A program made the position numbers and the translations under genes. Shown here in pieces: positions 7,401-60,037 of a stretch of DNA of 64,000 nucleotides. Source of the stretch: Noviherbaspirillum suwonense. GTDB lineage: Bacteria > Pseudomonadota > Gammaproteobacteria > Burkholderiales > Burkholderiaceae_D. The notes under the pieces were generated by a model. The model had not been told where the DNA came from and made no database searches. It worked only from the letters and a program-made list of their open reading frames with translations. The stretch is from positions 1-64,000 of the forward strand of contig NZ_FXUL01000018.1 of assembly GCF_900182955.1 (NCBI RefSeq), given 5' to 3'. How positions within the stretch are numbered: position 1 is the stretch's first letter; the number at the start of each line of letters is the position of its first letter.

Positions 7401-7622
7401 AAGCATCGTCGTTGTCAATGGATACGTCACCTGATTTTCAACGATCTGCGGCGCTTGGCCCGGATAGGTGGTCCGGATAATGACCTGAACGTCTGAAAGG
7501 TCGGGAAGGGCATCAACCGGTGTGCGCGATAACGCCCAGATGCCCCAGGCAGTCATCATCAGCGTGGCAAGTAATACCAAAAAACGGTTGATAATCGACC
7601 AGCGAATTAGCTTGGCAATCAT
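4443..7622 (-). CDS. cusA: CusA-type copper/silver RND efflux pump
   Basis: At 1059 residues this is a full-length heavy-metal RND transporter, the inner-membrane proton-driven pump of a CusCBA tripartite exporter. The TM4 signature reads [20 protein letters not shown], with the essential Asp typical of the Cu/Ag (HME4) branch. The three methionines that line the CusA copper path appear in the contexts LYMPS, LEMFETT and RIDMLATG. This favours Cu(I)/Ag(I) over the Zn/Co/Cd substrates of CzcA. Its start overlaps the cusB stop by four bases (ATGA), which implies translational coupling. The last 15 residues are a polar tail after the final helix. No frameshift is seen. Confidence 0.95.
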
Positions 7623-25312: not shown

Positions 25313-25513
25313 GGCGGCAGTGGATTGTGCAATCCAATTGGGATCGCCGTATTTTAGAGATACATGTGACGTAGCGCCATCCGTTTTGTATATTTATACT
25401 GTATTTCACTTGACTCCCATAACAGGTAATTCTAAGATGCTGCACGGAAACAATATTTGATACTCGTTTGGCCCCTCCGGGCTGCCGCACACCGACCTCT
25501 CAGGAAAAACCAC

Positions 25514-26236
25514 ATGAAAAAAACTCTGCTCGCCCTGGCGCTGGCCGTCACCTCACTAACCGCCCTGGCTGCGCAACCGGCCATGGACCCCGATACCGCG
25601 ATGGTTCTCAACAAGCTCAAGCAAAGCTATCCGTCGACCACGTTCGGCAATATCGAGAAATCGGCCCTGCCAGGCGTCTACGAGATCACGATGGGCAAGA
25701 ACATCGCCTATACCGACAAGGAAGGCCGCTATTTCCTGTTCGGTAGCGTCTATGACATGCAGACCCGCCAGGACCTGACCGCGCCCAAGCGCGAAGCCCT
25801 GAACAAGATCGATGTCACCAAGCTGCCGCTGGCCGATGCGTTTGTCACCAAGCGGGGCAACGGCGCACGGACCATTTACCTCTTTACCGATCCGGACTGC
25901 CCGTACTGCAAGAAGCTGGAGCCGGAACTGGCCAAGCTCGACAACGTGACGATCTACACTTTTCTGTTTCCGATCGACTCGCTGCACCCGGATGCGCGTA
26001 ACAAGGCCGAATCCATCTGGTGCGCCAAGGACAAGCAGGGTGCCTGGAACAGCCTGATGATCGCTGGCCAGGTGCCGGAGTCGAAGAAGTGTGCCAATCC
26101 GGTGGAGCGCAATGTCGCGCTGGCCGAGAAGCTCAACATCCGTGGCACCCCGTTCCTGATGAGCGCGGATGGCCGCTCCCTGCCGGGCGCAGCGCCAGCC
26201 GAGAAAATCACCGCCTGGCTCGAAGGTAGCCAGTAA
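25514..26236 (+). CDS. dsbC: DsbC-type periplasmic disulfide isomerase of the transfer system
   Basis: This 240-residue protein has a signal peptide (residues 1-20), an N-terminal DsbC dimerisation domain (about 25-85) and a thioredoxin fold with active site C129-P-Y-C132 followed by KKLE. It also has the cis-Pro loop in RGTPFL. DsbC isomerases shuffle disulfides in Cys-rich transfer proteins such as TraU. The ATG at 25514 begins the signal peptide; earlier in-frame starts do not fit. It shares one base with traW and starts the operon dsbC-traW-traU-trbC. Confidence 0.88.
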   Translation: MKKTLLALALAVTSLTALAAQPAMDPDTAMVLNKLKQSYPSTTFGNIEKSALPGVYEITMGKNIAYTDKEGRYFLFGSVYDMQTRQDLTAPKREALNKIDVTKLPLADAFVTKRGNGARTIYLFTDPDCPYCKKLEPELAKLDNVTIYTFLFPIDSLHPDARNKAESIWCAKDKQGAWNSLMIAGQVPESKKCANPVERNVALAEKLNIRGTPFLMSADGRSLPGAAPAEKITAWLEGSQ

Positions 26237-26865
26237 TGCGGCACGCGCGGACAACCCTGCTGATCGCGGCGGCTGCGGCGGCGATCCTGACCCCGGTTGC
26301 TCGCGCAGAGCAGCTAGGCACCTATGGCAATACGTGGGAAATCGCCGAGCAGGATGGGGTCGAGTCCATCAAGAACCGCCTGACCAAGATGGACAAGGGC
26401 GGCAAGATGAAGGAATTCTGGGAAGACTACCGGGACAAGCAGCTCGATGGCGTGAACAATCCGCAGCCGATCCCCGGCATTTCCAAGGTCAAGGAAGCAA
26501 AGACCTGGACCTTCGACCCGACCTACACGTTCACCGAGACCGCCAAGGATAACCTCGGTAATGTGCTGGTCCCGGCCGGCACCAAGATCAATCCTCTCGA
26601 CTACACGCAGCTGTCCAAGGCCATTGTGTTCATTGACGGCCGCGACGAGGCGCAGGTTGCCTACGCAAAGCAGCGCACCGACGCGAACCCGAAAGACAAG
26701 GTCGTGCTGGTAGGCGGCTCATACGTGAAGCTCACGCGGGAATGGAAGCGGCCGGTGTACTTCGATCAGCGCGGCATCCTGGTGAAGCATTTCAATATCA
26801 AGCGCGTTCCGGCTGTCTTGTCGCAACGTGGCAAGCAACTGATGATCGAGGAATTGGCATTATGA
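26236..26865 (+). CDS. traW: TraW, F-type pilus assembly protein
   Basis: This 209-residue periplasmic protein has a signal peptide (about 1-25) followed by the TraW opening LGTYGNTWEIAEQD. Its C-terminal part carries the family's IVFIDGRDEAQ and FNIKRVPAVLSQ segments. In F plasmid, TraW works with TraU and TrbC in pilus extension and mating-pair formation. It overlaps dsbC by one base and traU by four. Confidence 0.92.
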   Translation: MRHARTTLLIAAAAAAILTPVARAEQLGTYGNTWEIAEQDGVESIKNRLTKMDKGGKMKEFWEDYRDKQLDGVNNPQPIPGISKVKEAKTWTFDPTYTFTETAKDNLGNVLVPAGTKINPLDYTQLSKAIVFIDGRDEAQVAYAKQRTDANPKDKVVLVGGSYVKLTREWKRPVYFDQRGILVKHFNIKRVPAVLSQRGKQLMIEELAL

Positions 26866-27902
26866 AAAGACGATTGGCGGCATGGCTGCTGGCCGCGTGT
26901 GCGGTCCTGCCCGGCATCTCCCGTGCGGACGACCTGTGCACCGGCAAATTCCCCAACCTGATCACAGAAGTCTGCTGGTCCTGCATCTTCCCGATGAAGA
27001 TGTTTGGCAGTGTCACCCTGATGAGCGGCGGGCAGGAAGATTATCAGTCCGCTCCCAGCCAGGCCATATGTGCCTGTACCAATGGCGGCGTGCCCAAGGT
27101 TGGTGTGCCCACCTCCTTCTGGGAGATGGACATGATGACGGACGTGACATCCACGCCGGGATGCTTCCCGATGCTGGGCGGCGCGCGGGTCAACATCGGG
27201 GTGAACTCGGATGCCTTCGGTACGGACCAGAAGTACCGCCGTGGCGCGTCAGCCTCGGGGAAGTCGTCGTTCAGGCAGGTCAACCTGTACCTGAATCCAG
27301 CCATGTATGTGCTTGGCGCGGTGCTGGACGACCAGTGCCTGGACAACCGCGGGATGGACGTGCCATGGGTCTCGTTTGCCGACCCGACGCACAACGATGA
27401 CGAACTGGCTGGCATCCTGACGCCCTATGCCTTCCCGTTCGGCAGCCTGCTGGCCATCGGTGCCAACACGGCCGATGCGGTCGCGGCAACCGCCGGCTTT
27501 CCGATCCAGGAAATCTTCTGGGCCGCTGGCGCCTATGGCCATATGTATCCCCTGACCGGCACCAATAACAGCCATGTCAGCAACGAGCAGTCGGCGCGGC
27601 TGCAAACGGCCCGTATCCTGGCCAAGCTGCATGCGGCCGGCACCCAGTGGTCGGCTGCCGGCGAGCATGCGATGTGCGGCTACTACCCGCAGATCATCAT
27701 GGACAAGCGCCAGTACAAGTTCCAGCGCCTGGCCCCGATCCCGCAGACCAAGAAAATCAATGGCCGCTGCTGCGATCCGATTGGTCGCTCGACCATCCTG
27801 GTTGAGTCCGGCACGCAGGCCCCTTTACCTAACCTGAGAGACTTTTCCTATGCGATTTTCCGCAAGCGCGATTGCTGCAGCGGCGTTACTCCTAGCAATT
27901 GA
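26862..27902 (+). CDS. traU: TraU, conjugal transfer protein
   Basis: This 346-residue protein is periplasmic, with a signal peptide (about 1-21) and the TraU signature CTGKFPNLITEVCWSCIFP, followed by Cys-rich segments including CACTNGG and RCCDP. The many cysteines make it a likely DsbC client. TraU is needed for DNA transfer more than for pilus growth in F. The start at 26862 overlaps the traW stop (ATGA). Its 3' end overlaps trbC by 53 bases, which is long for this operon. Confidence 0.92.
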   Translation: MKRRLAAWLLAACAVLPGISRADDLCTGKFPNLITEVCWSCIFPMKMFGSVTLMSGGQEDYQSAPSQAICACTNGGVPKVGVPTSFWEMDMMTDVTSTPGCFPMLGGARVNIGVNSDAFGTDQKYRRGASASGKSSFRQVNLYLNPAMYVLGAVLDDQCLDNRGMDVPWVSFADPTHNDDELAGILTPYAFPFGSLLAIGANTADAVAATAGFPIQEIFWAAGAYGHMYPLTGTNNSHVSNEQSARLQTARILAKLHAAGTQWSAAGEHAMCGYYPQIIMDKRQYKFQRLAPIPQTKKINGRCCDPIGRSTILVESGTQAPLPNLRDFSYAIFRKRDCCSGVTPSN

Positions 27903-28581
27903 AATCACGGGATTCTCCGCCGGCGCGCAGGCGCAGGGACTGCCAGGCGAGGCGGACATCAAGGCGCAGATGGCGAAACAGCGTGCCGCTACCATGGAAG
28001 CCCTGAAGATGAGTCCGGGGCAGGGCGTTCAGGCAGGCGGCTTCAGGACCGAGGTCCCCAAGGTGACGCCGGCGCCACAGCGCACGCAGGATCTGGATGC
28101 ACTGGTCAAGCAGTACCAGACCGGCAAGCCGGTCGACCTGCCCAAAAGCAGCCATGACTTGATCGTGTTCGTGTCGTTCTCGATGCCGCCCGACATCCTG
28201 AAGGAGCTGGCGCGGCAGGCGAAGGAGACCGGCGCGGTGCTGGTGCTGCGTGGGTTCAAGGATGAGTCGCTGGCCGCGACCAAGCAGGCGGCGCTCATCC
28301 TGAATCAGGCGGGTGCGGAATGGGACATTCATCCCGACCTGTTCAAATCCTTCAAGGTGACCAAGGTGCCGACCTTTGCAGTGGCTACAGCAGATGCCAG
28401 TTCGGTGCTGGAGGAGGGCTGCGCCCCCGAAACTACCTACGCGACCATTTCCGGAAATATTTCCATCCAGGTGGCGCTGGACACGATCCGCCGGCGGGCA
28501 AGCAAGCCGATTGCGACGCTGGCCGAAGCCCGTCTGGAACGCATCAGGCTGGCGGGCCGTCCGGGTTCCGTAGTGCGGTAA
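27850..28581 (+). CDS. trbC: TrbC, F-type pilus assembly protein
   Basis: This 243-residue protein has a signal peptide (about 1-28) and a C-terminal TrbC_Ftype domain (about 90-225) with DLIVFVSFSMP and a thioredoxin-like layout without a CxxC pair. In F, TrbC cooperates with TraW in the periplasm. It begins inside traU, so its synthesis is probably coupled to traU. Confidence 0.88.
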   Translation: MRFSASAIAAAALLLAIEITGFSAGAQAQGLPGEADIKAQMAKQRAATMEALKMSPGQGVQAGGFRTEVPKVTPAPQRTQDLDALVKQYQTGKPVDLPKSSHDLIVFVSFSMPPDILKELARQAKETGAVLVLRGFKDESLAATKQAALILNQAGAEWDIHPDLFKSFKVTKVPTFAVATADASSVLEEGCAPETTYATISGNISIQVALDTIRRRASKPIATLAEARLERIRLAGRPGSVVR

Positions 28582-28612
28582 GCCGTTAACCCTATCGAGA
28601 AGCGAACAGACC

Positions 28613-29107
28613 ATGAAAATTGTTCTAATGGCCGTGCTTGCCGCTGCTGTAGCTGCCTCCTTCAGTGCATGCGCGCAAACGAACCAAACTGTTCCGGCTG
28701 TCGCGTCTGTCGCTGCGACGCGCATGACCACGGACTCCTATATCAACGGCCGGCCGGCCCAAGTCGTCTATGTCGGCCGCGCTGGCGCCTGCGAGGCGGT
28801 CAGCGTTAAATGGACAGAGCGGCGCATTGAGCACTTTAGGGTATGCGATCAGGAAGTAAGTGCGCGCAACACGGTAGCACCAGCCTGGTCGGATGAACCG
28901 TCTACGCGGCTGCTGCTGTCATCCACGATCAGGAATGCCGTGCTGTATGGCGAGGCGCGGCAAACGGACAGCAATGGCTACCAGTACGTCGCTCGCACCC
29001 TGCCGGCCGTGTCCGCGCGCTGCAGCAACATCGAAGTGATCATTTCCTATGACGGCGACCTGGTTGACCGGGCGCTGCGCGATGTCTGTGGCAAAGCAGG
29101 CTTCTAA
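28613..29107 (+). CDS. Secreted protein of unknown function in the transfer operon
   Basis: This 164-residue protein has an N-terminal export signal with FSAC at residues 18-21, a weak lipobox. Four more cysteines lie in the mature part. No family is recognised. It follows trbC after 31 bases on the same strand, so it is likely part of the same transcript. An envelope role in transfer is inferred from position only. Confidence 0.65.
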   Translation: MKIVLMAVLAAAVAASFSACAQTNQTVPAVASVAATRMTTDSYINGRPAQVVYVGRAGACEAVSVKWTERRIEHFRVCDQEVSARNTVAPAWSDEPSTRLLLSSTIRNAVLYGEARQTDSNGYQYVARTLPAVSARCSNIEVIISYDGDLVDRALRDVCGKAGF

Positions 29108-29127
29108 TTTTTAACCAAAAAAGTACC

Positions 29128-30009
29128 ATGAAAAAATCCATTCTCCTCGCATCCCTGATCGGCCTAACAACCGTCGCTTCTGCACAGGCAAACGCTCTGC
29201 GTGAAAATCTCGTCGCCCATCCCCTGACGGATCTGGTCGTGCCATTCGGCTCGAAAGCGACCCTGGTATTCCCGGTCCAGCAGGGTGGTGGCTTGCTGCG
29301 TCCTGAGATCACCAAGGAATTCAGGACGCAACTTGCCTCGATGTGCCCGACAAAATGGCAGATCGAGCGTTCAGTGCATGACGACGACAAGGGCCAGCGC
29401 ATGGACTGGGTGGATGCCGACAAGGTCTACGATGCTGATACCCTTGCCGATGGCATGGTGCTGCTGATATCAACGACCTACGGCAAGCTCGATCGCCAGG
29501 AGTACCGGATCAACGGTTCGCGCTGTGTGGGCGAGTTCACCATTCGCGATGTGTACTCCACGGGCGGAAGCGGACGGTATCCGACTGGGTTCTTTGTCAT
29601 CCACGACAAGGAGCAGCCAGCGCTCATCAAGCATCCGGCGCTTAACCAGGCGCCGGCTGATGCGACGTTTGAATCGGGTCCGCTGCCGGAAACCACCTTT
29701 TTGAAGTCGGGCACGACGGACCCATGGGATGTAGTGGTCTGGGCCATGGATCTTTGTGCCGCTCGCAAGGGCACGCCGACGCTTGCCATGGAAGACGCCA
29801 ATACCAAGGCGGTGAAAACCTTCACAGACCCGGCCACATTTAATGCGCTGATGCGCAAGATCCGGTTCATGAAGGGCGTGGCGGCAAATCCGTACGCACT
29901 CTCCTGCAGCGGCGAGAAGGCGTTCTCCGTGCGCGGCACTAAAGCTGCCTATGGAAAGCCTGTTGTGACCTTCGTGAACGGCATGCCGGCTTTGGCTTCG
30001 AATCCCTGA
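29128..30009 (+). CDS. Secreted protein of unknown function ending the transfer operon
   Basis: This 293-residue protein has a clear signal peptide (residues 1-22, ASAQANA) and four cysteines in the mature chain. No domain is recognised. It is the last gene of the dsbC-traW-traU-trbC block, 20 bases after the preceding gene and 46 bases before a strong terminator. TraN, which sits beside traU/trbC in many F-type clusters, is absent from this block. This protein is much shorter than TraN and does not resemble it. Confidence 0.65.
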   Translation: MKKSILLASLIGLTTVASAQANALRENLVAHPLTDLVVPFGSKATLVFPVQQGGGLLRPEITKEFRTQLASMCPTKWQIERSVHDDDKGQRMDWVDADKVYDADTLADGMVLLISTTYGKLDRQEYRINGSRCVGEFTIRDVYSTGGSGRYPTGFFVIHDKEQPALIKHPALNQAPADATFESGPLPETTFLKSGTTDPWDVVVWAMDLCAARKGTPTLAMEDANTKAVKTFTDPATFNALMRKIRFMKGVAANPYALSCSGEKAFSVRGTKAAYGKPVVTFVNGMPALASNP

Positions 30010-33217: not shown

Positions 33218-33846
33218 TTATGTACCTCGCCGCGTAAATCAATGAAAGCGAGTCGTTAGACGCACATCAAGCAGCGAGTGCCCCATTATTACATTCTGTT
33301 TCATTCCGCACAGAAACTTTACAGATTTTTGCAACAATCAATCCATCAATACAACACCCCTATATCCCGGCTCCGACGACCTCCCGGGCCGCTCCGCCGA
33401 CGGCCCCGTCTCCCTTCGATCCCCTTTATTTTCTTCTCTTTCTTTTCTCTCTGGCGCAAGCGCCACCCCCGCGACCTGTGCCGTCGACCAGCTGCGGATC
33501 GTCCCTGGACCGGCCGCGGCGGCTCTCTGAATTCTCTTTTTCCTTTTGATCGGTCGTCTCGATCCTGTCCCTGAGGCGGGAATCTCGGCTCCGCTTACCT
33601 GCCGGCGCTTTGCTCTGGTCGTGTATTTGCGGCCGACCTGGTGGCCACGGTCCGTTGAATCCCTTTTTTTCTTTTTTCTTTTTGTATCCTCTCGGGCGCG
33701 GCGGATCCGGGGAGGGGGGAGCCAGGCGGGTTTTACGGACCGTCAAAATGCCCGGTCCTTTTTATAGGGTGGGGTGGTCGATCGACCGGGGTTATGGTCT
33801 GGTTGCGGTGATGGATAGATTGTTGCGTTCTTGTCTCTCCCACCCT

Positions 33847-33872
33847 AATTACTGTATGCTTGACCAGTAATT
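33847..33872. repeat. Inverted repeat AATTACTG / CAGTAATT
   Basis: AATTACTG (33847-33854) and CAGTAATT (33865-33872) are perfect inverted 8-bp arms, 10 bases apart. Centre-to-centre the spacing is 18 bases, short of two helical turns. It could bind a dimeric protein, for example the recombinase homologue encoded 125 bases downstream. Confidence 0.5.
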
Positions 33873-33954: not shown

Positions 33955-33977
33955 GCAGGGCGGCTACGCCGCCCTGC
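33955..33977. repeat. Perfect GC-rich hairpin upstream of the recombinase-like gene
   Basis: GCAGGGCGGC and GCCGCCCTGC pair perfectly with a TAC loop, ending four bases before the AGAGGAG ribosome site. There is no T tract, so it is not a standard terminator. It may control translation or mRNA life. Confidence 0.55.
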
Positions 33978-33995: not shown

Positions 33996-35045
33996 ATGGA
34001 TATGAAAACGCTCGGTTTATACGATCACCCCGATGGCTGGCGACGCGAGCCCATCGAGGCCTTCGCCGAGTTCGTCAAGTCCGAGGCTTACCTCGAGCAC
34101 GGCCGTCGCCCGCCGACTGTCGACGTCAACAAGAAAAAACGTCCGCTGCGCGACTCCACCCGCAAGAACCTCATCCACATGTTCGGCAAGTTCGTCAAAT
34201 GGATGGCCGGCGAACAGGTCAACCTGTTTACCGTCACGCCCGACCATATCCTGCGGTTTCTCGACGCCCAGGTCACCGGCCGCGGCAAGGGCGACAAGGA
34301 TATGGTCAGCACCATCCGGACCCGCCATGTGCGGCTGCTCGAGCGCGTCTACCGGCATCTGGAAATCGCGCCCAACCCTGCCTCGATGGCTGCGCACGGC
34401 ATGTACCGCAACCGGGAGACCGGCGCCGCCGGCGTCGACAAGCCCACCATTGCGCTCACGCGCGAGCAGGAGGCGGCGTTCCTGAAGGCGCTGCCAGGCG
34501 AGCCGGGCGACCCGCGACAGAACTGGAAGCGCCGGCGCGACCGCGCCATGCTGGCGCTGGCGATCGGCGCCGGATTAAAGGTCTCGGAGATCCGCGGCCT
34601 CTATGTCGAAAACATCGGCCAGCCGATGAGGGATGGCTACATCACCATTACGGTCAATCCCGCCGCCACGGACGGCACCAGCCTGCCGCATGACACAGTT
34701 CTGCGCCAGGAGTATGTCTCCTACCTGCAGCCTTGGATGAAAGAGCGTGCCGGCCTCGATGTCCCCGGCAGGCTGCTTTTCCCTTCCGGGTTACGAAAGG
34801 AAGAAAAGATCGACCAGGTCACGCTCTATCGCCAGATCAAGGCCACCTTCGAGCGGGCCGAGATGACTTCCGTCGACCATCAGGGCGGCCGCACCCTGCG
34901 CAACACATTTGCCGTGCGCGAGCTGGCGCTGGGAACGACCGTGGAGCAGCTGTATGACCTGATGGGACACCGCGACATCAAGACGACCGAGACTTTTGTT
35001 GGGTTGGTATCAAAGTACCGGCCCATCCGCAGCCAGGATTCTTGA
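33996..35045 (+). CDS. Tyrosine-recombinase homologue lacking key catalytic residues
   Basis: The 349-residue product has an N-terminal SAM-like DNA-binding domain (about 15-120) and a C-terminal catalytic-type domain (about 150-340). Aligned by motif to XerC, the first Arg is Lys (GLKVSEI in place of GLRxSEL). The H of H-x-x-R is Arg (RTLRNTF), and the nucleophile Tyr is Phe (TTETFVGL). Only the second Arg and the LMGH His remain. Strand exchange by the usual chemistry is therefore doubtful, though Tyr in VSKY lies a few residues on. It may bind DNA as a regulator or structural factor. AGAGGAG seven bases upstream sets the ATG at 33996. Confidence 0.75.
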   Translation: MDMKTLGLYDHPDGWRREPIEAFAEFVKSEAYLEHGRRPPTVDVNKKKRPLRDSTRKNLIHMFGKFVKWMAGEQVNLFTVTPDHILRFLDAQVTGRGKGDKDMVSTIRTRHVRLLERVYRHLEIAPNPASMAAHGMYRNRETGAAGVDKPTIALTREQEAAFLKALPGEPGDPRQNWKRRRDRAMLALAIGAGLKVSEIRGLYVENIGQPMRDGYITITVNPAATDGTSLPHDTVLRQEYVSYLQPWMKERAGLDVPGRLLFPSGLRKEEKIDQVTLYRQIKATFERAEMTSVDHQGGRTLRNTFAVRELALGTTVEQLYDLMGHRDIKTTETFVGLVSKYRPIRSQDS

Positions 35046-35217: not shown

Positions 35218-35469
35218 ATGGGCCCATACGAACGAAAACTTAATGAACTCGTGGCCATCACGAATTCGCTGGAAGGAACCGGTGGCAGCCGCGCCTTGAG
35301 GGCCATCATCAAGGATCTATCGGGCCATGGCCCGATCTCAGAACTGCTCTATACCTTGGACCGGCAGAATTTCGATAAGGTGATCGAACTCCTGGTGGAA
35401 TTCCGCGACAGGGGACGAAACGAGCCATTCAATGACCTGCATGAACAAGCTGTGCAAAGGCTGAAATAG
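35218..35469 (+). CDS. Hypothetical small soluble protein
   Basis: This 83-residue helical, charged protein has AGGAGA about nine bases upstream of its ATG. No family is recognised and no membrane segment is seen. It lies 32 bases before the next gene on the same strand, so the two probably form an operon. Confidence 0.6.
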   Translation: MGPYERKLNELVAITNSLEGTGGSRALRAIIKDLSGHGPISELLYTLDRQNFDKVIELLVEFRDRGRNEPFNDLHEQAVQRLK

Positions 35470-37636: not shown

Positions 37637-39694
<2,058 letters not shown>

Positions 39695-46487: not shown

Positions 46488-47131
46488 AGCTGTCCTTCAT
46501 GAAGTCGACATGGGAATCGGCCAACAAGGGCACCTCTGTCATGCTGATGTCGAACGTGGCCCTTGCGCTCGCCTTGGGCGCAATGGTAGTCGACAAGCTG
46601 ACGGACCATGAGCGACTTGTCCTGGTGCCGCCGTATATCGACAAGGCAGTCAAGGTCGGCTGGAAGTCGGCGGATGCGGATTATCTGAAATCGTTCGGCC
46701 TGTATTTCGCCACGCTCTCTGCCAATGTCAGCCCGAAGAACGTCACCTTCGTGGCGGACTCCCTGTCCGGCATGGTGTCGGCACGGATTTACCCGGAAGT
46801 GCGCAAGAAGCTGCTGGTGCTGGCCGAAGACCCGGTGTTCAAGGCCAACGGCGGTTCGGTGCGGTTCGAGCCGGACCGCGTGGTCTTCGAAGCCGACACT
46901 TCCAAGGTATTCGTCTCGGGAAATATGACGACCCAGACTGCCGGCGGCAGGCAGGAATCGGCTGCACTGACCTATGAAATGCGCATCGAGATGCAGGCGG
47001 GCCGCCCCCTGGTCGACGCGCTGACCCACTATCCCGGCAACCAGCCGCACACGCTGAAATGGCTGGAAGGAAATCCGAAGGCTGCCGAGGATGCCAAGGT
47101 CGCTTTACAAGTGAAGGAAACGCAAGAATGA
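46484..47131 (+). CDS. traE: TraE, F-type transfer channel protein
   Basis: This 215-residue protein has one N-terminal membrane helix (about 18-40) and a periplasmic VirB8-like domain with VPPYIDKAVKVGW and YLKSFGLYFATLSANVSP typical of TraE. It forms part of the inner-membrane channel platform. The ATG at 46484 overlaps the traL stop, and its own stop overlaps traK by four bases. Confidence 0.92.
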   Translation: MKLSFMKSTWESANKGTSVMLMSNVALALALGAMVVDKLTDHERLVLVPPYIDKAVKVGWKSADADYLKSFGLYFATLSANVSPKNVTFVADSLSGMVSARIYPEVRKKLLVLAEDPVFKANGGSVRFEPDRVVFEADTSKVFVSGNMTTQTAGGRQESAALTYEMRIEMQAGRPLVDALTHYPGNQPHTLKWLEGNPKAAEDAKVALQVKETQE

Positions 47132-47976
47132 AACGTCTGTTAGTCGCGCTGGCTGTCCTGAGCGCTTTTGCCGCCCAAGCGCAAGATCTGCCGCCGCCTC
47201 CGGGTATCCCCGCTGCAGGTACGCCGGTGTCATTCCATGCGAAGGCAGCCGCACCCAAGCGAATCCTGGAGCAGAAACTGCCGGGGCTGGGCCTGATGCC
47301 AGGCGATAAGCAGGCGACCAAAGCCAATGTGGTTCGCGTCTCATCCGACCGCAATGAAATCATTTATGTGTCGGCAGAATATCCGAACCGGATCGCAACC
47401 CCTTATGCCGATCCAAAGGTCATTGATGACGACAAGGCGGTGGTAAAGGCGGTTGGTCAATCGGTATATGTAACGCCGAAAAGCGATGCACCGATTACCC
47501 TGTTCGTCTCCGGTCCGTCGCCAAACGATCCGGTCGTGTCGCTGACCCTGGTGCCGAAGAACCTGCCGTCGCAGACCATCATTCTGCAGTTGGACGAGCC
47601 GCTCGCCGCCGTTGGCGCCAAGCCGGAAGAAGAAGCGCCGTCCGACAACGTCTATACCGACCGGATCCGCTATGTCATGCGCCAGATCGCGCTGGGTAAA
47701 ACGCCCGAAGGCTTCGCCGAAGGTGCGCTGCCAAGAGCCGTGGCGCGCATGGATCAGCTGATGGTCGTGCCGGAAGTGCGTTACTCCGGCTCCAGCTATG
47801 ACGTCTATCGCTACCGGGTCGAGAACGTCTCGGATGCGACGGTCGAGATGGATGAGCAGGCTTTTGCGTCGGATGGCGTGCGCGCCGTGGCGATCTTCCC
47901 GAACGCGATCCTCGAAAAGGGCCAGTCGACGTCCGTTTTCGTCATGGCTGACAAAGCGGCCACGGGAGGCAAGTAA
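47128..47976 (+). CDS. traK: TraK, outer-membrane core secretin-like protein
   Basis: This 282-residue periplasmic protein has a signal peptide (residues 1-18) and the TraK/VirB9-like strands, including TITLFVSG-like and VSLTLVPKNLP segments. It joins TraV and TraB in the outer-membrane core. The start at 47128 overlaps the traE stop; the stop and the traB start share one base (TAATG). Confidence 0.9.
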   Translation: MKRLLVALAVLSAFAAQAQDLPPPPGIPAAGTPVSFHAKAAAPKRILEQKLPGLGLMPGDKQATKANVVRVSSDRNEIIYVSAEYPNRIATPYADPKVIDDDKAVVKAVGQSVYVTPKSDAPITLFVSGPSPNDPVVSLTLVPKNLPSQTIILQLDEPLAAVGAKPEEEAPSDNVYTDRIRYVMRQIALGKTPEGFAEGALPRAVARMDQLMVVPEVRYSGSSYDVYRYRVENVSDATVEMDEQAFASDGVRAVAIFPNAILEKGQSTSVFVMADKAATGGK

Positions 47977-49202
47977 TGGCCACCTTTGGTGAACAATTCA
48001 AGAAAAAGTGGGATAACACCCCGCCTGCAGCGCGCGCTGTAACGGCCATTGTTCTGGTCCTCGGCACGTTGATGATTGGCGCATCCCTCGTGATGGGACC
48101 GGCAAAAGCCCAGCCGCAGAAACGCATGGTTGCGGCGAGCGAAACCAACCTGTTGCTGCCGAAGGGCAAAGACAAGACGGTGGAGAAGGTCGCTGCAGAA
48201 TCGGCCTCCAACGGCCAGGAAATCGACAAGGTCAAGGCAGAGCTGGCCAAGGAAAAGGCCGACAACCAGGCCATGCTGCAGCGCCTTGAGGCGTCGGAAA
48301 AGTCTCGGACGACTTCCTCCGTCGACTCCGAAGTGGTGCAGGAACTCATAGCCCTGAAAAAGCGGCTGGACGAAGTCGAAAAGAACAAGGGTACCGGCCC
48401 CGGTCCGAAGCTGAGCGATCCGGTTCCGACCGGCGCCGCAGGTCTGGCCAACCCGGTGCTGGATGGCGCTACTGCCGCTGCCGGCGATGCGCCAAGGTCG
48501 GATGATGGTCCGAAGCTGCGCGTGATCGGGGGCGACAAGCCTGCTGCGGTCAAGGAATCCAAGAAGGCAGCCAAGGTCTATGCGTACATGCCAGCCGGCT
48601 CGATGGTTGAAGCAGTACTGATGAATGGTATGGATGCGCCTACGAGTGCTGTCTCGCAGAAGAACCCGGTCCCCGCCGTCATGCGCGTGAAGTCCGATGC
48701 CATCCTGCCGAACCACTTCACCCACGATATCAAGGAGTGCTTCGTTCTGGTATCCGGCTTTGGCGTCATGAGTTCCGAGCGTGCGCAGCTGCGTACCGAA
48801 ACCTACTCCTGTATCCGTGAAAACGGACAGGTGCTGGAAGGGAAGCTGGATGGCTATGTGGTGGGCGAGGATGGGCGCGTCGGCGCACGCGGCCGTCTGG
48901 TCAGCAAGCAGGGCAGCCTGATCGCCAAATCGCTGGCCGCAGGTGTGTTGTCCGGTATTGGTCAGGCGATTACCCCGACGAACGTGCCGCAACTGAATCT
49001 GAATCCATCGAGCATGGTGCAGACCCAAACCACCGATGCAAGCACAGTCGCCCAAACTGGTGTGGCGCGCGGCCTTTCGGACGCATCCAAAGCAGCGGCA
49101 CATTTTTATCTGGAAATAGCGCGGGAAATGACACCCGTCGTTGAAATCGATGCCGGCCGCAAGCTGACCATCGTGCTGATCAAGGGAGTGGAATTCAAAT
49201 GA
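47976..49202 (+). CDS. traB: TraB, VirB10-like envelope-spanning protein
   Basis: This 408-residue protein has an N-terminal membrane helix (about 20-45), a coiled coil (about 70-135, KVKAELAKEKADNQAMLQRLEA) and a Pro/Gly-rich linker. The C-terminal VirB10 domain (about 195-405) contains YMPAGSMVEAVLMNGMDAPT and IKECFVLVSGFGVMSSERA. It spans from inner membrane to the outer-membrane core. The overlaps with traK and traV are one and four bases. Confidence 0.93.
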   Translation: MATFGEQFKKKWDNTPPAARAVTAIVLVLGTLMIGASLVMGPAKAQPQKRMVAASETNLLLPKGKDKTVEKVAAESASNGQEIDKVKAELAKEKADNQAMLQRLEASEKSRTTSSVDSEVVQELIALKKRLDEVEKNKGTGPGPKLSDPVPTGAAGLANPVLDGATAAAGDAPRSDDGPKLRVIGGDKPAAVKESKKAAKVYAYMPAGSMVEAVLMNGMDAPTSAVSQKNPVPAVMRVKSDAILPNHFTHDIKECFVLVSGFGVMSSERAQLRTETYSCIRENGQVLEGKLDGYVVGEDGRVGARGRLVSKQGSLIAKSLAAGVLSGIGQAITPTNVPQLNLNPSSMVQTQTTDASTVAQTGVARGLSDASKAAAHFYLEIAREMTPVVEIDAGRKLTIVLIKGVEFK

Positions 49203-49837
49203 AAAACCTCAAACTGAACAATCGCATTGTTGCCATCGCGCTCGCTATCCCTGTGTTACTGACCGGCTGTGCTTCGGCTCTCAATCCAGGTGGAGAATCG
49301 TCCTTTTCTTGCCCCGGTATGCCACAAGGCATCGTTTGCAAGACCCCGACCGCGGTCTACAAGTCGACGAACCAGATGCCGGCAGAAACCGAGAATGATC
49401 TGCCGCTTGGCCAGCACCTTGGCGACAAGTCGGGCCCGCCCGCAGGCATGACCTATGTGCTGCCCAAGTCGCTCGATGTGAAATCCGCGCCTGGCGCGAC
49501 CACCGGCGCCGGCATCGTCAAGACCGGCAAAGCCAAGCCGGTGCGCGAAGCCGCGCAAGTCATGCGCATCTGGATTGCGGAATGGACCGACAAGAATGAT
49601 GACCTGCACTACCCCGGCTATCTGTTCACCGAAATCCAGCCGCGCCGCTGGTCGGTCGGCAAGTCGGAAGCCTCGGGTCGCAATACCACCGTTCCGTTCC
49701 GTGCGGCCGCAGCGCCAGCCGGCGCATCGGGCAAAGAGCAACCTGTCGCCGCCAAGCCTGCCGAGGGTGAGGCGCGTCAGTCGGCGGCGATGAGCATGCC
49801 GGGATTACCGTCACCCTCGGACATCAACCTCAACTGA
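49199..49837 (+). CDS. traV: TraV, outer-membrane lipoprotein
   Basis: This 212-residue protein has a lipoprotein signal with LLTGC at about residues 20-24, then the TraV signature with two cysteines, SFSCPGMPQGIVC. A Pro/Ala-rich linker follows. TraV anchors TraK in the outer membrane. It overlaps traB by four bases and is followed 40 bases later by the pilin gene. Confidence 0.9.
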   Translation: MKNLKLNNRIVAIALAIPVLLTGCASALNPGGESSFSCPGMPQGIVCKTPTAVYKSTNQMPAETENDLPLGQHLGDKSGPPAGMTYVLPKSLDVKSAPGATTGAGIVKTGKAKPVREAAQVMRIWIAEWTDKNDDLHYPGYLFTEIQPRRWSVGKSEASGRNTTVPFRAAAAPAGASGKEQPVAAKPAEGEARQSAAMSMPGLPSPSDINLN

Positions 49838-49877
49838 TTTTTTACCACCACAACCCCCTCACTCTCTGGAGATTTGT

Positions 49878-50216
49878 ATGAAACTGAAACAACAAGCCCT
49901 GGCCGCCCAGCAAAACGTCATTTCCTTCGCCAAGGAACACCATGCCTTCCTGCTGGCGTTCGTCATCGTCGCCGTCCTCTCCATGGGTAGCGCCATCGCC
50001 GGCACGGATTCCACTTTCGCCACCGTATCCACGAACCTGGACGGCTGGATGACCGGCTCGCTGGGCAAGGTGTTCTCCCTCGGCGCTCTGGCGGTTGGCT
50101 TGGGCATTGGCGTGATCAAGCAGTCGATTCTGTCGGTTGCGACCGGCGTATCGATCGCCCTGGCATCGTCCATCGGCCCTGGCGTACTGACCAACATGTT
50201 TTCGGCCACCCTGTAA
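49878..50216 (+). CDS. traA: F-type propilin (TraA-like)
   Basis: This 112-residue protein has a long leader whose hydrophobic segment ends at IVAVLSMGSAIAG (about 27-45), where leader peptidase could cut. The mature chain of about 65-70 residues has two hydrophobic helices (about 66-82 and 86-106), as in TraA-type pilins. Pilins diverge fast, so the call rests on size, layout and position between traV and traC. A terminator-like hairpin follows, which would raise pilin mRNA relative to downstream genes. Confidence 0.75.
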   Translation: MKLKQQALAAQQNVISFAKEHHAFLLAFVIVAVLSMGSAIAGTDSTFATVSTNLDGWMTGSLGKVFSLGALAVGLGIGVIKQSILSVATGVSIALASSIGPGVLTNMFSATL

Positions 50217-50236
50217 TTTAGAACGTGCCGAATTTC

Positions 50237-50264
50237 GGGGAGGCTGCGGCCTCTCCAATTTTTT
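50237..50264 (+). terminator. Leaky terminator or processing hairpin after the pilin gene
   Basis: GGGGAGGC and GCCTCTCC (one G-T pair) surround TGCG, followed by AATTTTTT. It lies between the pilin gene and traC in one operon, so it must be partial. Confidence 0.65.
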
Positions 50265-50293
50265 AGCCAACCAGACAAAATTCACTTTCCGCC

Positions 50294-52738
50294 ATGCTCT
50301 CCTTCTTCAAGTCCTCCAAAGCTGCAAGGCAGCCCGTGCTCATCGATGGCGACCGCAAATCGGTGCCGTTCGAGAAGCTGACCGTGCGCGCATGCGATAC
50401 CGACTCCAATATCTTCTATATGTCGGACGGAAAGGAATTCTATCTGGGTGCCTGCTATACAGGACTGCCCATTGCCGGCGCGGATGCGGCCACGGTCGAC
50501 AAGTTCAAGTCCGCACTGAGCATGCAGCTTCCACCCGGCAGCTTCATTCAGTTTGCGCTCCTCAGCAGCCCGGACGTCGAATCGTATCTGGACCGCTATC
50601 TCACCAATAAGGAATACGCGACACCGATTCTCTCCGAGTTGGCGAAGTCGCATGCGGCGCATTTCCGTGATGGCATCGACAAGGCGCTGGTCAACACGTC
50701 GGGCGTGCTGCTGAACCGCCAGCGCATCATGCTGACCATCAAGGTGCCGTGCCCAAGTCCAATTCCCACGGAAGCCCATATCCACGCAGCGAGGGAAACA
50801 ACCGACCGATTCTACGAAGCCGTACGGGCAACTGGCATCCATCTCGAGGTGGTAGGTCCACAGCAGTACCTGCACATCATGCGGCTCATCACCCATCTGT
50901 GGGAAAAGCCAGAATCCAACTATAACGATCAGGTTCCGCTGCGCGAACAGGTCTATTACCCCGCCGACTCCATCAATTTTAGCGACAAGAATACGATCAG
51001 CTTCCACGAAGACCAGTTTTTCGCCAAGGCCATGAGCGTCAAGTTCTTCCCCAAGCGCGCACGGTTAAGTGTGATGAACCAGCTCATCGGCGACGCCCAC
51101 GGATTGACCAACCAGGTCACCGATCCCTTTTATATGGTCATGACCCTGCACTATCCGGACCAGGTGGCCAAGGGAGAATGGGTTAAGGGAAGGTCGGCGA
51201 TGATCAATCACCAGGTATTCGGGCCGACTGCCCACATGATCCCGGTGCTGGGTTATAAGAAAGCCGGCATTGACACCCTCGTCCATGAAATGGAAGGTCG
51301 AGGGGGAATCCTGTGCGAGATGAATTTCACGGTGTTCCTTTTCTCCAGATCCAAAGAGCGGCTTAATAAGCTCACGGCCGGCTTGCAGGCCTATTATTCT
51401 TCCATCGGATTCGAAATGCGGGAAGACAGGCGGATTTTGGAGCCGCTCTGGAATAACGTGCTGCCCCTGAATACGACCCGGGAAGGCATCAGAAACCTGT
51501 ATCGCTTTCACACCATGGCAATCAGCCACGCTGTCCAGTTTCTGCCGATATTCGGGGACTGGGGCGGCACCGGCCCTTCCGGGGCGACTTTGCTCATGTC
51601 GCGCCGTGGGCAACCAGTCCTGTTCGACCTGTTCGAGTCGCATACCAACTTCAATGCCGTGGTCTTTGCCGAATCCGGCGCAGGCAAATCCTTTTTTACG
51701 CAGCAGTTGGTTTCGGACTACCTGGCAGAAGGGGCCAAGGTATGGGTCATCGACACGGGCCGCAGCTATGAAAAGCTCGCCAACGTCAACGATGGCACCT
51801 TTATCGAGTTCGATACCGAATCCGACATTTGCCTGAACCCGTTCACGCACATCGATGGCAACCTCGACGAGGAAATGGACATCCTCAAGGCCATGATCGC
51901 CAAGATGGCGGCCCCGGAGGAAGTCCTGGACGACTACCGGATGGCGCTTCTGGAGCAGGCCATTACCACCACCTACAAGAAATACGGACCCGCATCGACC
52001 ATTACCGCAGTCGCGGACTGCTGTATCCAGTCGCCCGACCCCGAAGCGCAGCGACTCGGCAAGCAGCTGTTCCCGTTCGCCGGCGGCGCCTATACACGCT
52101 GGTTCGATGGCGAAAACAACCTGAACATGGACAATGCCTTTGTCGTTCTCGAACTCCAGGAACTGAAATCGAAAAAGGCCCTGCAGCAGGTCATCCTTCT
52201 GCAGCTGATGGCCCGCATCAACCATGAAATTTTCCTTACGCACGGCCGGCGCAAGATCCTGATCCTGGAAGAAGCGTGGGAGTCGCTGAATGACCCGGTG
52301 ATGGGCAAGGCCATGGAAGCGGTCTACCGCAAGGCCCGTAAGCACGATGCGGCCGTGATCGTGGTGACCCAGTCGGTAGCGGACCTGTACGGTTCGCCAA
52401 ATGCTCGCGCCATCTACGAAAATTCCGCCTGGCAGCTGATCCTGAAGCAAAAAGGCGAATCGATCGATTCCGCGATAGAAGGCAAGCAGTTCAAGATCGA
52501 CGACTACGGCGCATACATGCTCAAGTCCGTGCACACCAATTCCGGCAAGTACAGCGAGGTGATGATCAAGCAGTCCGAGAGCGACTGGGGCATTGCCCGC
52601 CTGGTGGTGAGCCCGTTCACGCAGGTTTTATTCTCAACCAAAGGCGCTGAGCGCGACGTCATACTCGACGCAATGAAACGCGGCGAAAGTGCCACCAGCG
52701 CCATTCATAACTTCCTCGAACACCGGCAGGCGGCCTGA
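50294..52738 (+). CDS. traC: TraC, VirB4-family ATPase of the transfer system
   Basis: This 814-residue cytosolic ATPase powers pilus assembly. The N-terminal half is the TraC-specific domain. The ATPase half has Walker A ESGAGKS at about 460-466 and Walker B in ILILEEAWESL near 653-663, followed by VIVVTQSVADL. The length matches F TraC closely. It is separated from the pilin by a leaky terminator and followed by a complete terminator, so the next gene needs its own promoter. Confidence 0.93.
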   Translation: MLSFFKSSKAARQPVLIDGDRKSVPFEKLTVRACDTDSNIFYMSDGKEFYLGACYTGLPIAGADAATVDKFKSALSMQLPPGSFIQFALLSSPDVESYLDRYLTNKEYATPILSELAKSHAAHFRDGIDKALVNTSGVLLNRQRIMLTIKVPCPSPIPTEAHIHAARETTDRFYEAVRATGIHLEVVGPQQYLHIMRLITHLWEKPESNYNDQVPLREQVYYPADSINFSDKNTISFHEDQFFAKAMSVKFFPKRARLSVMNQLIGDAHGLTNQVTDPFYMVMTLHYPDQVAKGEWVKGRSAMINHQVFGPTAHMIPVLGYKKAGIDTLVHEMEGRGGILCEMNFTVFLFSRSKERLNKLTAGLQAYYSSIGFEMREDRRILEPLWNNVLPLNTTREGIRNLYRFHTMAISHAVQFLPIFGDWGGTGPSGATLLMSRRGQPVLFDLFESHTNFNAVVFAESGAGKSFFTQQLVSDYLAEGAKVWVIDTGRSYEKLANVNDGTFIEFDTESDICLNPFTHIDGNLDEEMDILKAMIAKMAAPEEVLDDYRMALLEQAITTTYKKYGPASTITAVADCCIQSPDPEAQRLGKQLFPFAGGAYTRWFDGENNLNMDNAFVVLELQELKSKKALQQVILLQLMARINHEIFLTHGRRKILILEEAWESLNDPVMGKAMEAVYRKARKHDAAVIVVTQSVADLYGSPNARAIYENSAWQLILKQKGESIDSAIEGKQFKIDDYGAYMLKSVHTNSGKYSEVMIKQSESDWGIARLVVSPFTQVLFSTKGAERDVILDAMKRGESATSAIHNFLEHRQAA

Positions 52739-52775
52739 CGCCGCATTCTGTTTCCTGCCCGGTTGTACTAAAACC

Positions 52776-52808
52776 AAATGGCGATCCAAACAGGGTCGCC
52801 ATTTTTCT
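52776..52808 (+). terminator. Strong terminator after traC
   Basis: AAATGGCGA and TCGCCATTT form a perfect 9-bp stem around an 11-base loop and run into TTC. Confidence 0.8.
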
Positions 52809-52824
52809 TGCACAAGAGCAATAT

Positions 52825-52839
52825 ATACTGATACAGTAT
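52825..52839. promoter_or_regulatory. Palindrome ATACTG-ATA-CAGTAT before trbI
   Basis: ATACTG and CAGTAT are perfect 6-bp inverted arms around ATA, in the 92-base gap between the traC terminator and trbI. It is a candidate operator in the promoter that restarts the operon. Related TACTGTAT elements precede the genes at 23167 and 25514. Confidence 0.4.
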
Positions 52840-52900
52840 CGGTACTCGTTATGTCGTTGTAAATTCCTACTACAGCAACCCCAATTTAGAAAGACTGCCC

Positions 52901-53326
52901 ATGTCCGATCAGACAAATGCCGCGCCGGAAGCTCCTGCTCCTGCCTCTATAAATACTTCACCAAAGCAGCCCGCAGGCGTATCGCTTGTTACTGCTTGCA
53001 TCATTGCAGCGTTGTTTTCTGCCTTCAGCGGGGCGGCATCATGGCATTTTGCCTCGCAGAATGCCGGTGGCACCCTGGTTGCCACGGTCGATGCGGCACG
53101 ACTGGCGCGTCTGAAAATGAAGACCACGCTGGATCAGCCTGGTGTCACAAACGAACAGGCCACCGCGGAAGCGAAGGCATTCGTGCAGCAGCTCGACAAG
53201 GCGTTGGAAGCCTATTCAAATGAAGGCATCCTGGTGCTTAATTCCGGCGCTGCGATGAACAAACCCGCTGCCAATGACATCACCGCCAATGTCGCGGCAA
53301 ATATGGGCATCAAGTTGCAAAACTGA
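52901..53326 (+). CDS. trbI: TrbI-like F-type transfer protein
   Basis: This 141-residue protein has a polar Pro/Ala N-terminus, one membrane helix (about 30-50) and a periplasmic helical domain with VDAARLARLKM and GILVLNSGAAMN, as in TrbI of F-type systems. F TrbI modulates pilus retraction. It is two bases before the peptidase gene and begins the second half of the operon. Confidence 0.8.
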   Translation: MSDQTNAAPEAPAPASINTSPKQPAGVSLVTACIIAALFSAFSGAASWHFASQNAGGTLVATVDAARLARLKMKTTLDQPGVTNEQATAEAKAFVQQLDKALEAYSNEGILVLNSGAAMNKPAANDITANVAANMGIKLQN

Positions 53327-53328
53327 CC

Positions 53329-53889
53329 ATGGCAGCCTTGGGTATTCATGACTGGCGCACGGTATGGGCGTGTTTCTGGGCAGAGAAAGGGCGGCGTGCC
53401 TTTGCCGGCAAGGCGCTCGCGTTCTGCGCGCTAACATTCGCGATCTTCTATCCGCTGTTGAGTATGGCCACGCATGATGTTCGGATCGGCATCGATATGC
53501 AGGAGGTGCGTTGTCTTCCCTGGCGGGTGTATCTGCTCAAACTGGGCCGACCCACTGAATTCACCAGGGGAGCCTATGTCGCATTCAAGCCGCGAAATGG
53601 TTTGATGGGGCCAAAATTTGAAGGTCGTCTGGTAGGCAAGATGGTCGCGGGACTGCCGGGTGACGAGCTCGTTGTCAGTCACGATGAAGCCTCTGTTAAC
53701 GGGCGTCCGGTCGGCAAACTGGTACTGCTACCAAAACTTGCGGCCAAGCCTGGCTCCTACGACAGGCGCGAAACAGTCCCGGAGGGGAAAATTCTTGTCC
53801 TCGGCACCGACCCGCGAAGCTACGACGGCCGGTACTGGGGATTTCTTGATCAAAGCGACGTCATCGGGAGCGTGCGCCCGATGTTCTAG
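53329..53889 (+). CDS. S26-family conjugative signal peptidase with Cys at the nucleophile position
   Basis: This 186-residue protein has one N-terminal membrane helix (about 27-47) and a periplasmic S26 domain. The Ser motif S-x-P-x-G-x-Y appears as RCLPWRVY, with C62 where Ser is usual. The general-base Lys is K104 in GKMVAGLPGDE, and box E reads VLGTDPRSYDGRYWG. RP4 TraF is a related enzyme that cyclises pilin. Here it may process or circularise the pilin of 49878-50216. A Cys nucleophile would be an unusual active-site change, though it may be normal in this branch. Confidence 0.82.
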   Translation: MAALGIHDWRTVWACFWAEKGRRAFAGKALAFCALTFAIFYPLLSMATHDVRIGIDMQEVRCLPWRVYLLKLGRPTEFTRGAYVAFKPRNGLMGPKFEGRLVGKMVAGLPGDELVVSHDEASVNGRPVGKLVLLPKLAAKPGSYDRRETVPEGKILVLGTDPRSYDGRYWGFLDQSDVIGSVRPMF

Positions 53890-53976
53890 CCGAGGCGGCT
53901 GTGTAAAGCCCGACAGCGCGGGCCGTCATTACTTATTCCCTTTCATACGTATTGGTACGCGTTGTGGCTACTTATT

Positions 53977-54906
53977 ATGCTTAAAAAACTTTTACTCTTG
54001 GCGTTGGTTGCATGCGCTCTGCCCGCCATAGCGCAGGAAGAGGGCGGGACCGGTCGTTTCTTCGACCGAAAGTCGGAAGGCTGGTACTGGTACCTTGATC
54101 CGAAGGATCAGCCGCCTGAGGAAAAAGCGCCTGCTGTCGTTCCATCCGATAAGCCAGCGCATGCAAAGCCGGTGGCTGCGAAAAAGGAACCGTTTTCCGT
54201 GGAATGGCTGCGTGAGAACATGCCAAAGCTGCTTGACGCCGCCGTCAACAACCCGACAAAGGAAAATGTCGAGGCCTATTTTTATGCGCAGCGCGTAGCA
54301 ATGGACAAGTCGCAGCGCTATGCCGAACAGGCGCGGCAAGTGGTGGCAAACGATCCCTTCCTGGATGAAAACAACCGGGTACCCATCGCCTCCTATACCA
54401 AGCCGTTCTTTTTGCGCGAAACGCAGGAAGCGAAGGACGTCGCGCTGAAGCACGTTGCCAGCGTGGGCGGTCTCTGGGTGTTCTTCGATTCCAAATGCAA
54501 GTTCTGCCAGCCACAAGCCAATTCTGTTGCTGAACTCAGCAAAAAGTACGGAATCCTCACCAACTTCATTTCCATGGATGGCAAGGGACTGCCAAACATA
54601 CCGCAGTTCTCGCGAGACAAAGGGCATGCAAAACAGCTCAAGCTGAAGATTACGCCAACCACGGTCCTCGTCGTGCCGCCCAATAATTTCTACATCGTGT
54701 CGCAGGGGATGATGGCGCAGGACCAGCTGGCCGACAGGATACTTCTGGCCGCGGAAAGTAACTCGCTCCTGCCCAAGGACATTTCCACCAAGCTCAACGC
54801 ATACGACCGCGGCGTCCTGACAAACGAAGATACGCAAGACGGTCGCAGTGACGATCCCAAGCAGTGGGTTCAAAAGCTCAAAGAGCGGCTCCAGAGCCGT
54901 TATTAA
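53977..54906 (+). CDS. traF: TraF, thioredoxin-like conjugal pilus assembly protein
   Basis: The 309-residue product has a signal peptide (about 1-19, PAIAQ) and the TraF opening GWYWYLDP. A C-terminal thioredoxin fold carries C-K-F-C in FFDSKCKFCQPQ and the cis-Pro loop ITPTTVLV. F plasmid TraF lacks a CxxC pair, so this one, like some other members, may be redox-active. It is needed for pilus assembly in the periplasm. The ATG at 53977 starts the signal peptide; a TTG at 53962 is less likely. Confidence 0.9.
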   Translation: MLKKLLLLALVACALPAIAQEEGGTGRFFDRKSEGWYWYLDPKDQPPEEKAPAVVPSDKPAHAKPVAAKKEPFSVEWLRENMPKLLDAAVNNPTKENVEAYFYAQRVAMDKSQRYAEQARQVVANDPFLDENNRVPIASYTKPFFLRETQEAKDVALKHVASVGGLWVFFDSKCKFCQPQANSVAELSKKYGILTNFISMDGKGLPNIPQFSRDKGHAKQLKLKITPTTVLVVPPNNFYIVSQGMMAQDQLADRILLAAESNSLLPKDISTKLNAYDRGVLTNEDTQDGRSDDPKQWVQKLKERLQSRY

Positions 54907-54928
54907 TTTCCCTCCTCGATACCACTCC

Positions 54929-56380: not shown

Positions 56381-56389
56381 GACATCATC

Positions 56390-59857: not shown

Positions 59858-59863
59858 CAAAAG

Positions 59864-59886
59864 AGCCGGCTAGCAAACCGGCTCGT
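59864..59886 (+). terminator. Terminator hairpin 1 after traG
   Basis: GAGCCGG and CCGGCTC pair around CTAGCAAA. The T tract is weak. Confidence 0.55.
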
Positions 59887-59893
59887 TCAGACA

Positions 59894-59928
59894 AAAAGGC
59901 TGCCCGGTATATCGCCGGGCAGCCTTTT
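59894..59928. terminator. Strong terminator 2 after traG
   Basis: AAAAGGCTGCCCGG and CCGGGCAGCCTTTT form a 14-bp perfect stem around TATATCG. The symmetrical A/T ends allow termination from both sides. Confidence 0.85.
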
Positions 59929-60037
59929 GCATTGGTAAATTTCTGGCAGTGATTTAAAAGTTTACGACGGCGTTGTGTTATCGATTTAATTAATCAAGAA
60001 TAGTTGTCCTGCTGGAGGGCAGATAGCTGGCCGGTAG

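Follow-up and report, generated by a model that had tools for sequence, protein, structure and literature searches.

The gene at 33996-35045 of the window, that is, of the whole 64,000-nucleotide stretch of Noviherbaspirillum suwonense DNA that was analysed (contig C18 of its genome), probably encodes a terminator protein that acts in a polar replication fork trap; it would descend from a tyrosine recombinase and no longer cut DNA. This reading is built on the loss of catalytic residues, the conservation of the protein, the sites, their order and polarity, and the position of the gene on chromosomes. An earlier note on this DNA had named no function for the gene; the evidence points to replication termination.

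A tyrosine-recombinase fold without its catalytic set

33996-35045, plus strand: degenerate tyrosine-recombinase-fold protein of 349 aa (K195, R299, R302, H325, F334), proposed replication terminator protein (PF00589, XerD alignment, AlphaFold, Foldseek)

The open reading frame runs uninterrupted from the ATG at 33996 to the stop at 35045 and is preceded by GAGGAG, in agreement with the earlier description of an intact gene with a good ribosome site. The protein matches Pfam PF00589 at 1.1e-13 (51.8 bits, for a cut-off of 27.1), and the NCBIfam Xer models score it far under their cut-offs. Alignment to E. coli XerD (1a0p; sequence match 2.7e-8) places K195 at the position of the first Arg, R299 at the His of HxxR and F334 at that of the Tyr, leaving the R-H-R-[H/W]-Y set incomplete, while the second Arg (R302) and the second His (H325) are kept. 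The Lys, Arg and Phe that had been read by motif as replacing the catalytic Arg, His and Tyr, with other fold residues retained, are recovered by this alignment. Structure prediction, suggested in the earlier note, gave an AlphaFold model with a mean pLDDT of 85.6 from a 40-row alignment, for which all 50 best rows of 196 Foldseek matches are tyrosine recombinases, headed by Cre (3crx, TM 0.62, E 4.3e-10). The fold matches and the three replacements together indicate that the tyrosine-recombinase fold has been kept and the catalytic set lost.

Orthologues of the window protein occur in three other genomes of the genus (97, 89 and 82% identity), and a second copy lies on contig C7 of the window's own genome (84%). 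K, R, R, H and F stand at the catalytic positions in all five of these copies, whose dN/dS values range from 0.10 to 0.21 over the 10 pairs; purifying selection is acting on them. A further copy in genome G003, on contig C3, is broken: its first half is joined to the last part of the 83-aa ORF that follows the gene. More distant relatives (41-42% identity) are found on the G003 chromosome and on other contigs of the remaining three genus genomes. In four Noviherbaspirillum-type genomes (loci L048, L053, L054 and L055), the chromosomal relative has neighbours that were judged by eye to resemble cyanophycin synthetase genes.

The full catalytic set is present in none of the 20 full-length places of the homologue search including the genus genomes, none of the 19 high-scoring loci among 30 fetched and none of the nine plasmid loci read out of 92 plasmid records with a match (three collections that share a few loci), whereas it is present in 11 of 11 lower-scoring Xer-like controls. 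It is equally absent from the best 80 of 289 loci, which were selected by a TLRN motif, so that their His counts are not independent evidence. Three loci cut or blank in the alignment (L027, L175, L179) are excluded from these counts, and L012, a 25% relative outside the tables, also lacks the full set. The family is marked by an LRN motif, in most cases TLRN, and has Arg or Gln where His would stand; LRG occurs in six of the 30 fetched loci. The earlier note had regarded close homologues with the full set as the sign of a recent loss; none appeared among the relatives read, and its proposal that an integrase was exapted into a conserved protein that binds DNA is supported, with the binding suggested by a site kept at the family's own promoters.

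An inverted pair of sites upstream of the gene

33330-33347, plus strand: left arm, TGCAACAATCAATCCATC, '+' site of the inverted pair (repeat and site comparison)
33348-33809, no strand assigned: intervening segment, containing pyrimidine tracts (same orientation in an alignment of six copies)
33810-33827, minus strand: right arm, CGCAACAATCTATCCATC on the minus strand, '-' site (repeat and site comparison)
33831-33860, plus strand: promoter-like TTGTCT-N18-TATGCT, directly right of the right arm (by eye; same spacing in six copies)

The upstream repeats mentioned in the earlier note are indeed there, as two arms inverted relative to each other and alike at 16 of 18 bases. The left arm marks the start of similarity in four of the five other copies compared, and the middle of the intervening segment has diverged in the C7 copy. 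A promoter scanner reported no promoter for 33831-33860. The sequence CTGTATGCTTGACCAG at 33852-33867, which we take to resemble a LexA/SOS box (CTG-N10-CAG), overlaps the promoter-like sequence, and its counterpart in G001 is CTGTATGCTTGGACAG. Just ahead of the ribosome site, at 33955-33977, lies a perfect 10-bp hairpin, GCAGGGCGGC-tac-GCCGCCCTGC, called a leftward terminator by the scanner; its arms change together in G002.

Two inverted sites flanking a segment that adjoins a recombinase-like gene could also be the substrate of an active enzyme with an unusual catalytic set, inverting the 460-bp segment or resolving dimers. The tyrosine of such a set might be Y341 (of 'SKY'), the shifted Tyr proposed in the earlier note, which is constant in the window copy and its four genus orthologues. 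However, the window clade has lost Arg, His and Tyr alike, and none of the members read has the full set; the six copies align in the same orientation, for which reason inversion of the segment was rejected; and other members have single or direct sites. Recombination is thus a very improbable explanation.

A structured RNA of about 500 nt, closed by the two arms and having the protein as its partner, is as hard to sustain and likewise highly improbable. The segment folds better than its shuffles on both strands (z -3.3 and -3.6) and the arms stay paired through changes, but the covariation term gives no support (+1.16 over six sequences), no Rfam match is found in the segment up to E 5, and similar arms recur in relatives 66-202 nt apart or as single sites. 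The RNA reading was therefore set aside.

A related site at the family's own promoters

Many family members are preceded by a site that is related to TGCAACTAAC and has the core AAYTAAC. R-type members carry 89 such sites upstream of 71 non-redundant genes (4.7 expected from shuffles), 57 of the 71 having at least one; Q-type members carry 13 in 21 genes (0.4 expected), in 13 of the 21. These excesses are to be read with the fact that the pattern was chosen after some of the same sequences had been inspected. The single member of neither type has no upstream site, and the pattern is missing in 14 of 71 R-type and eight of 21 Q-type members. Five of the 14 site-less R-type members belong to the window clade and two are chromosomal relatives from the genus, whose sites differ. 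The recurrence of the site at these positions suggests that the family protein binds it.

Inverted pairs were found in 15 of the 71 non-redundant members (from the best 80 of 289 loci), the first '+' site preceding the last '-' site in all 15; as the scan covered 480 bp, two window-clade loci were scored as single, one arm lying beyond. A Rep, ParA or ParB gene is present in the locus of 13 of the 15 inverted-pair members versus two of 46 other R-type members (Fisher 1.6e-9). A search of the four genus genomes gave 12 exact copies of the window-type site, all of them members of pairs, one pair lying beside the broken G003 gene; one-mismatch sites add five occurrences and the reversed pattern gives none. 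A wide regulon in the window genus was rejected on the grounds that the exact site is present only as pairs.

Polar sites and gene position on chromosomes

On the chromosome of Massilia forsythiae (G020), TCGGTTAGTTGC occurs 13 times and its reversed pattern does not occur. A broader pattern gave no excess over its reversed control in three other genomes (G057, 1 versus 2; G006, 4 versus 3; G047, 2 versus 3). Among 62 Massilia genomes, TCGGTTAGTTGC is present in 5-15 copies in 20, all of which carry the gene (E up to 1e-60). The 17 genomes without the gene hold six copies in all (none in 13, one in three, and three in the draft G527). In the other 25 gene-bearing genomes, it is absent from 24 and found once in one; among these 25, the eight for which the promoter was read all have a GTAACTAAC-type site in its place. 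The reversed pattern occurs 17 times across the 62 genomes. Genomes of the GTAACTAACC type have few sites, and the G003 chromosome has two.

The strand on which the sites lie changes in an orderly way around the circle. In G020, with dnaA at 2.201 Mb, the sites from 2.58 to 5.07 Mb are on one strand and those from 5.22 to 6.23 and from 0 to 0.49 Mb on the opposite one. The four complete Massilia chromosomes with full site lists (G020, G491, G499 and G503; G504 and later genomes are uncounted) have 13, 12, 9 and 9 sites, 43 in total, arranged in two strand runs per circle; in all four, dnaA lies inside one strand-switch interval and the other switch falls in the terminus region. The chance of two runs is 0.008, 0.015, 0.107 and 0.071, respectively, or 0.013, 0.033, 0.143 and 0.071 when promoter pairs are counted once. 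Draft contigs with at least two sites more than 1 kb apart are one-stranded in 15 of 15 cases among the matches listed.

The gene itself lies close to the dnaA antipode, at 0.97, 0.85, 0.17, 1.57, 1.24 and 3.99% of the circle on six chromosomes and at about 3.5% in G514, where the dnaA-like frame at the start of the record was recognised by motif and by eye. The antipode falls within the terminal switch interval only in G491 of the four Massilia chromosomes, being about 70-110 kb off it in G020, G499 and G503. In G514, the 1.1 Mb read contain only two full sites, which are separated by 455 kb and do not enclose the antipode; the '-' partner at 3295310 is on the strand expected from the other genomes, and on the wrong strand there is a partial match at 3089692.

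A regulator of plasmid and terminus whose sole effect is repression of its own gene (or looping of the two arms), with no action on forks, would account for sites at the family's own promoters and for an exact site that, in the window genus, occurs solely as these pairs. Nevertheless, pure autoregulation gives no reason for dispersed polar sites on both arms of Massilia chromosomes, nor for a gene near the dnaA antipode, and it is considered unlikely by comparison with a fork trap.

Skew and dif

In the first 400 kb of G000:C2, '+' sites at 135410, 177265 and 197306 are followed by '-' sites at 224251 and 367153, with a further '-' site beyond them at 424188; the family gene is at 197668, and contigs C1 and C20 of this genome have one additional site each. 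The cumulative GC skew peaks at 198893 in these 400 kb, 1.6 kb from the innermost '+' site. In G514, the peak over 1.1 Mb is at 2845554, 5.1 kb from the '+' site at 2840435, and in G020 that over 400 kb is at 5064021, 7.2 kb from the innermost '+' site at 5071184. The keto skew, computed for two genomes, peaks elsewhere (35152 in G000:C2 and 5039514 in G020). Strand composition was rejected as the cause of polarity, because GCAACTAACCGA has more C than G, yet in G514 the strand that bears it is the one rich in G to the left of the terminus, the skew thus working against the site.

Searches with a dif consensus placed dif-like sequences at 198833 in G000:C2, 2842885 in G514 and 5190590 in G020, at 0.06, 2.7 and 127 kb from the respective skew peaks. 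In G000 and G514, the peak is therefore as near dif as it is to the site, and the skew cannot separate a trap from dif there. A dif-like sequence lies between the innermost '+' and '-' sites in G000, G003, G514 and G020. With up to two mismatches, such sequences occur in 10 of 119 loci and in none after shuffling. In nine of nine loci checked they lie 0.15-3.7 kb from the gene and to the interior of its own-promoter site, although gene orientation differs between the two genera; the tenth locus, L080, is the same place as L055, and two of the nine possibly come from one species. Placement in the terminus region is thus seen from gene position on seven chromosomes and from dif inside the sites on four; it is not seen for the Burkholderia-type loci.

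The proximity and constant side of dif, together with the Xer-like nature of the protein and a skew peak as near dif as the site in two genomes, would also suit a guide or organiser of another terminus process, such as FtsK/KOPS-like orientation, control of dif/XerCD or terminus folding, using polar sites without fork arrest. Such a role is quite unlikely: chromosomes bear only 2 to 15 sites, plasmid-type members have a closed pair with no dif-like sequence in the plasmid-type loci scanned, and the G020 skew peak lies 7 kb from a site versus 127 kb from dif.

Plasmid context and neighbouring genes

35218-35469, plus strand: 83-aa ORF, kept downstream in related plasmid-type loci (locus comparison)

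Of 93 loci plus the window, a count that includes some places fetched twice, 28 have a Rep-like neighbour, 13 a ParB-like, nine a ParA-like and 12 a KfrA-like one; among the neighbours tested, two were confirmed as Rep3 and one as KfrA_N by Pfam. The family gene is beside or a few kb from ParA/ParB or a replication protein in plasmids of Undibacterium KW1, Janthinobacterium HH102, Massilia forsythiae and Polaromonas, and no Par or replication protein is found in the stretches read of the Undibacterium YM2, Thauera K11 and Mycetohabitans plasmids; two plasmid records carried no annotation. A replication initiator role for the family protein was dropped because many of the loci contain Rep3-type initiators, recognised by Pfam.

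In Burkholderia-type loci, the gene is about 3 kb from rep and beside a KfrA-like gene, with one recognised site. The family gene, a KfrA-like gene and a Rep3-type initiator occur together at 4839-10366 of locus L142 and in similar Burkholderia-type loci, a cluster that looks like the origin of a secondary replicon. The single site next to the replication gene could serve one-way replication, as for R1, or something else.

On contig C18, tblastn found no Rep or Par gene, and no plasmid origin was found. F-type transfer genes are recognised by eye at 25457-30009 and 47059-62216, and the order DsbC, TraW, TraU, TrbC among them is that annotated in the plasmid of Pseudomonas monteilii, where the family gene is 6 kb from F-type transfer genes. 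On this conjugative plasmid contig, the ORF at 37670-39694 resembles by eye an NAD-dependent DNA ligase. The 83-aa ORF has no Pfam match and may or may not be part of the system. In Oxalobacteraceae, 12 of the family loci compared are followed by a gene for some 290 aa that matches Whirly weakly (5902-6810 in L118 and similar loci).

How the trap would work

The protein would bind an asymmetric site of about 12-16 bp, TGCAACTAAC, TGCAACTATC or, in the window, TGCAACAATC. Once bound, it would let a fork pass when the TGCAA end is the first part of the site to be reached, and would arrest a fork arriving from the opposite end. On chromosomes, the sites on both arms would then admit forks to the terminus and block their exit, and the site at the gene's own promoter would provide autoregulation. 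On plasmids, including that of the window, two sites about 480 bp apart, '+' then '-', would constitute a compact trap ending both forks. We infer the binding, the direction of arrest, the autoregulation and the functioning of the window copy like its chromosomal relatives; for the latter, homology, a related site and the same '+' then '-' order argue for the extension.

Relation to known fork traps and recombinases

A close parallel is Tus-Ter of E. coli and of plasmids R6K and R1. There, too, the promoter of the terminator gene contains a ter site, both arms carry polar sites, and dif is enclosed by the innermost ones; versions occur on plasmids and next to the origin of a secondary chromosome. 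These layout features are described in the excerpts available of PMC10331603, PMC8707476 and PMC6549158, and a two-site trap that is not opposite oriC in those of PMC8707476. It is because this known layout is matched that the family is proposed as a terminator class and the window pair as a closed plasmid trap. The proteins differ, however, since that of the window has a tyrosine-recombinase fold, and a Pfam search with it at E up to 1 returned PF00589 alone, hence neither Tus (PF05472) nor RTP (PF02334). They also differ in distribution, the window family being in Burkholderiales whereas tus is reported only in gamma-proteobacteria, according to the excerpts of PMC6549158.

RTP-Ter of Bacillus subtilis is likewise an autoregulated terminator with polar sites, where RTP binds as dimers on two half-sites (excerpts of PMC10331603); for the window family, autoregulation would be a shared trait. 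Fork traps are limited to a few clades and to two unrelated proteins, Tus and RTP, in the excerpts of PMC6549158 and PMC10331603. Titles and abstract openings of the literature matches listed mention no recombinase-like fork trap and none in Burkholderiales. A term search of PMC4948915, on B. cenocepacia, found no Tus, kfrA or fork trap, and the portions available of PMC9345347 hold nothing on inactive recombinases. Among the literature matches listed, as far as their visible parts go, the family thus appears undescribed as a replication terminator.

With XerC/XerD and Cre, the window protein shares its fold and, for XerD, a sequence match. It departs from them by the replacement of the catalytic Arg, His and Tyr and by the sites of its family, which are single asymmetric arms, whereas dif is a 28-bp core of two half-sites. 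Yeast Ndc10 is a DNA-binding protein with a recombinase-like fold and without catalysis, but it acts in the unrelated context of the eukaryotic kinetochore. The core of the family site is, we presume, similar to that of E. coli Ter, and its polarity would be opposite.

Significance

On balance, we favour the view that the family forms a third, independently evolved class of bacterial terminators in Burkholderiales, found as two-site traps on plasmids, beside the replication genes of secondary replicons and near the main-chromosome termini of Massilia and Noviherbaspirillum, in some cases beside dif. Confidence in this view and in the terminator role of the window gene is tempered by the disagreeing keto skew and by the two genomes in which dif confounds the skew test. 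If it holds, fork traps would have evolved again, this time from a recombinase, and their purpose could be approached by comparing independent inventions. The family would offer a natural example of how a recombinase can bind DNA and leave it uncut and would explain many plasmid genes annotated as 'integrase', and it would predict the replication end points of many Massilia species.
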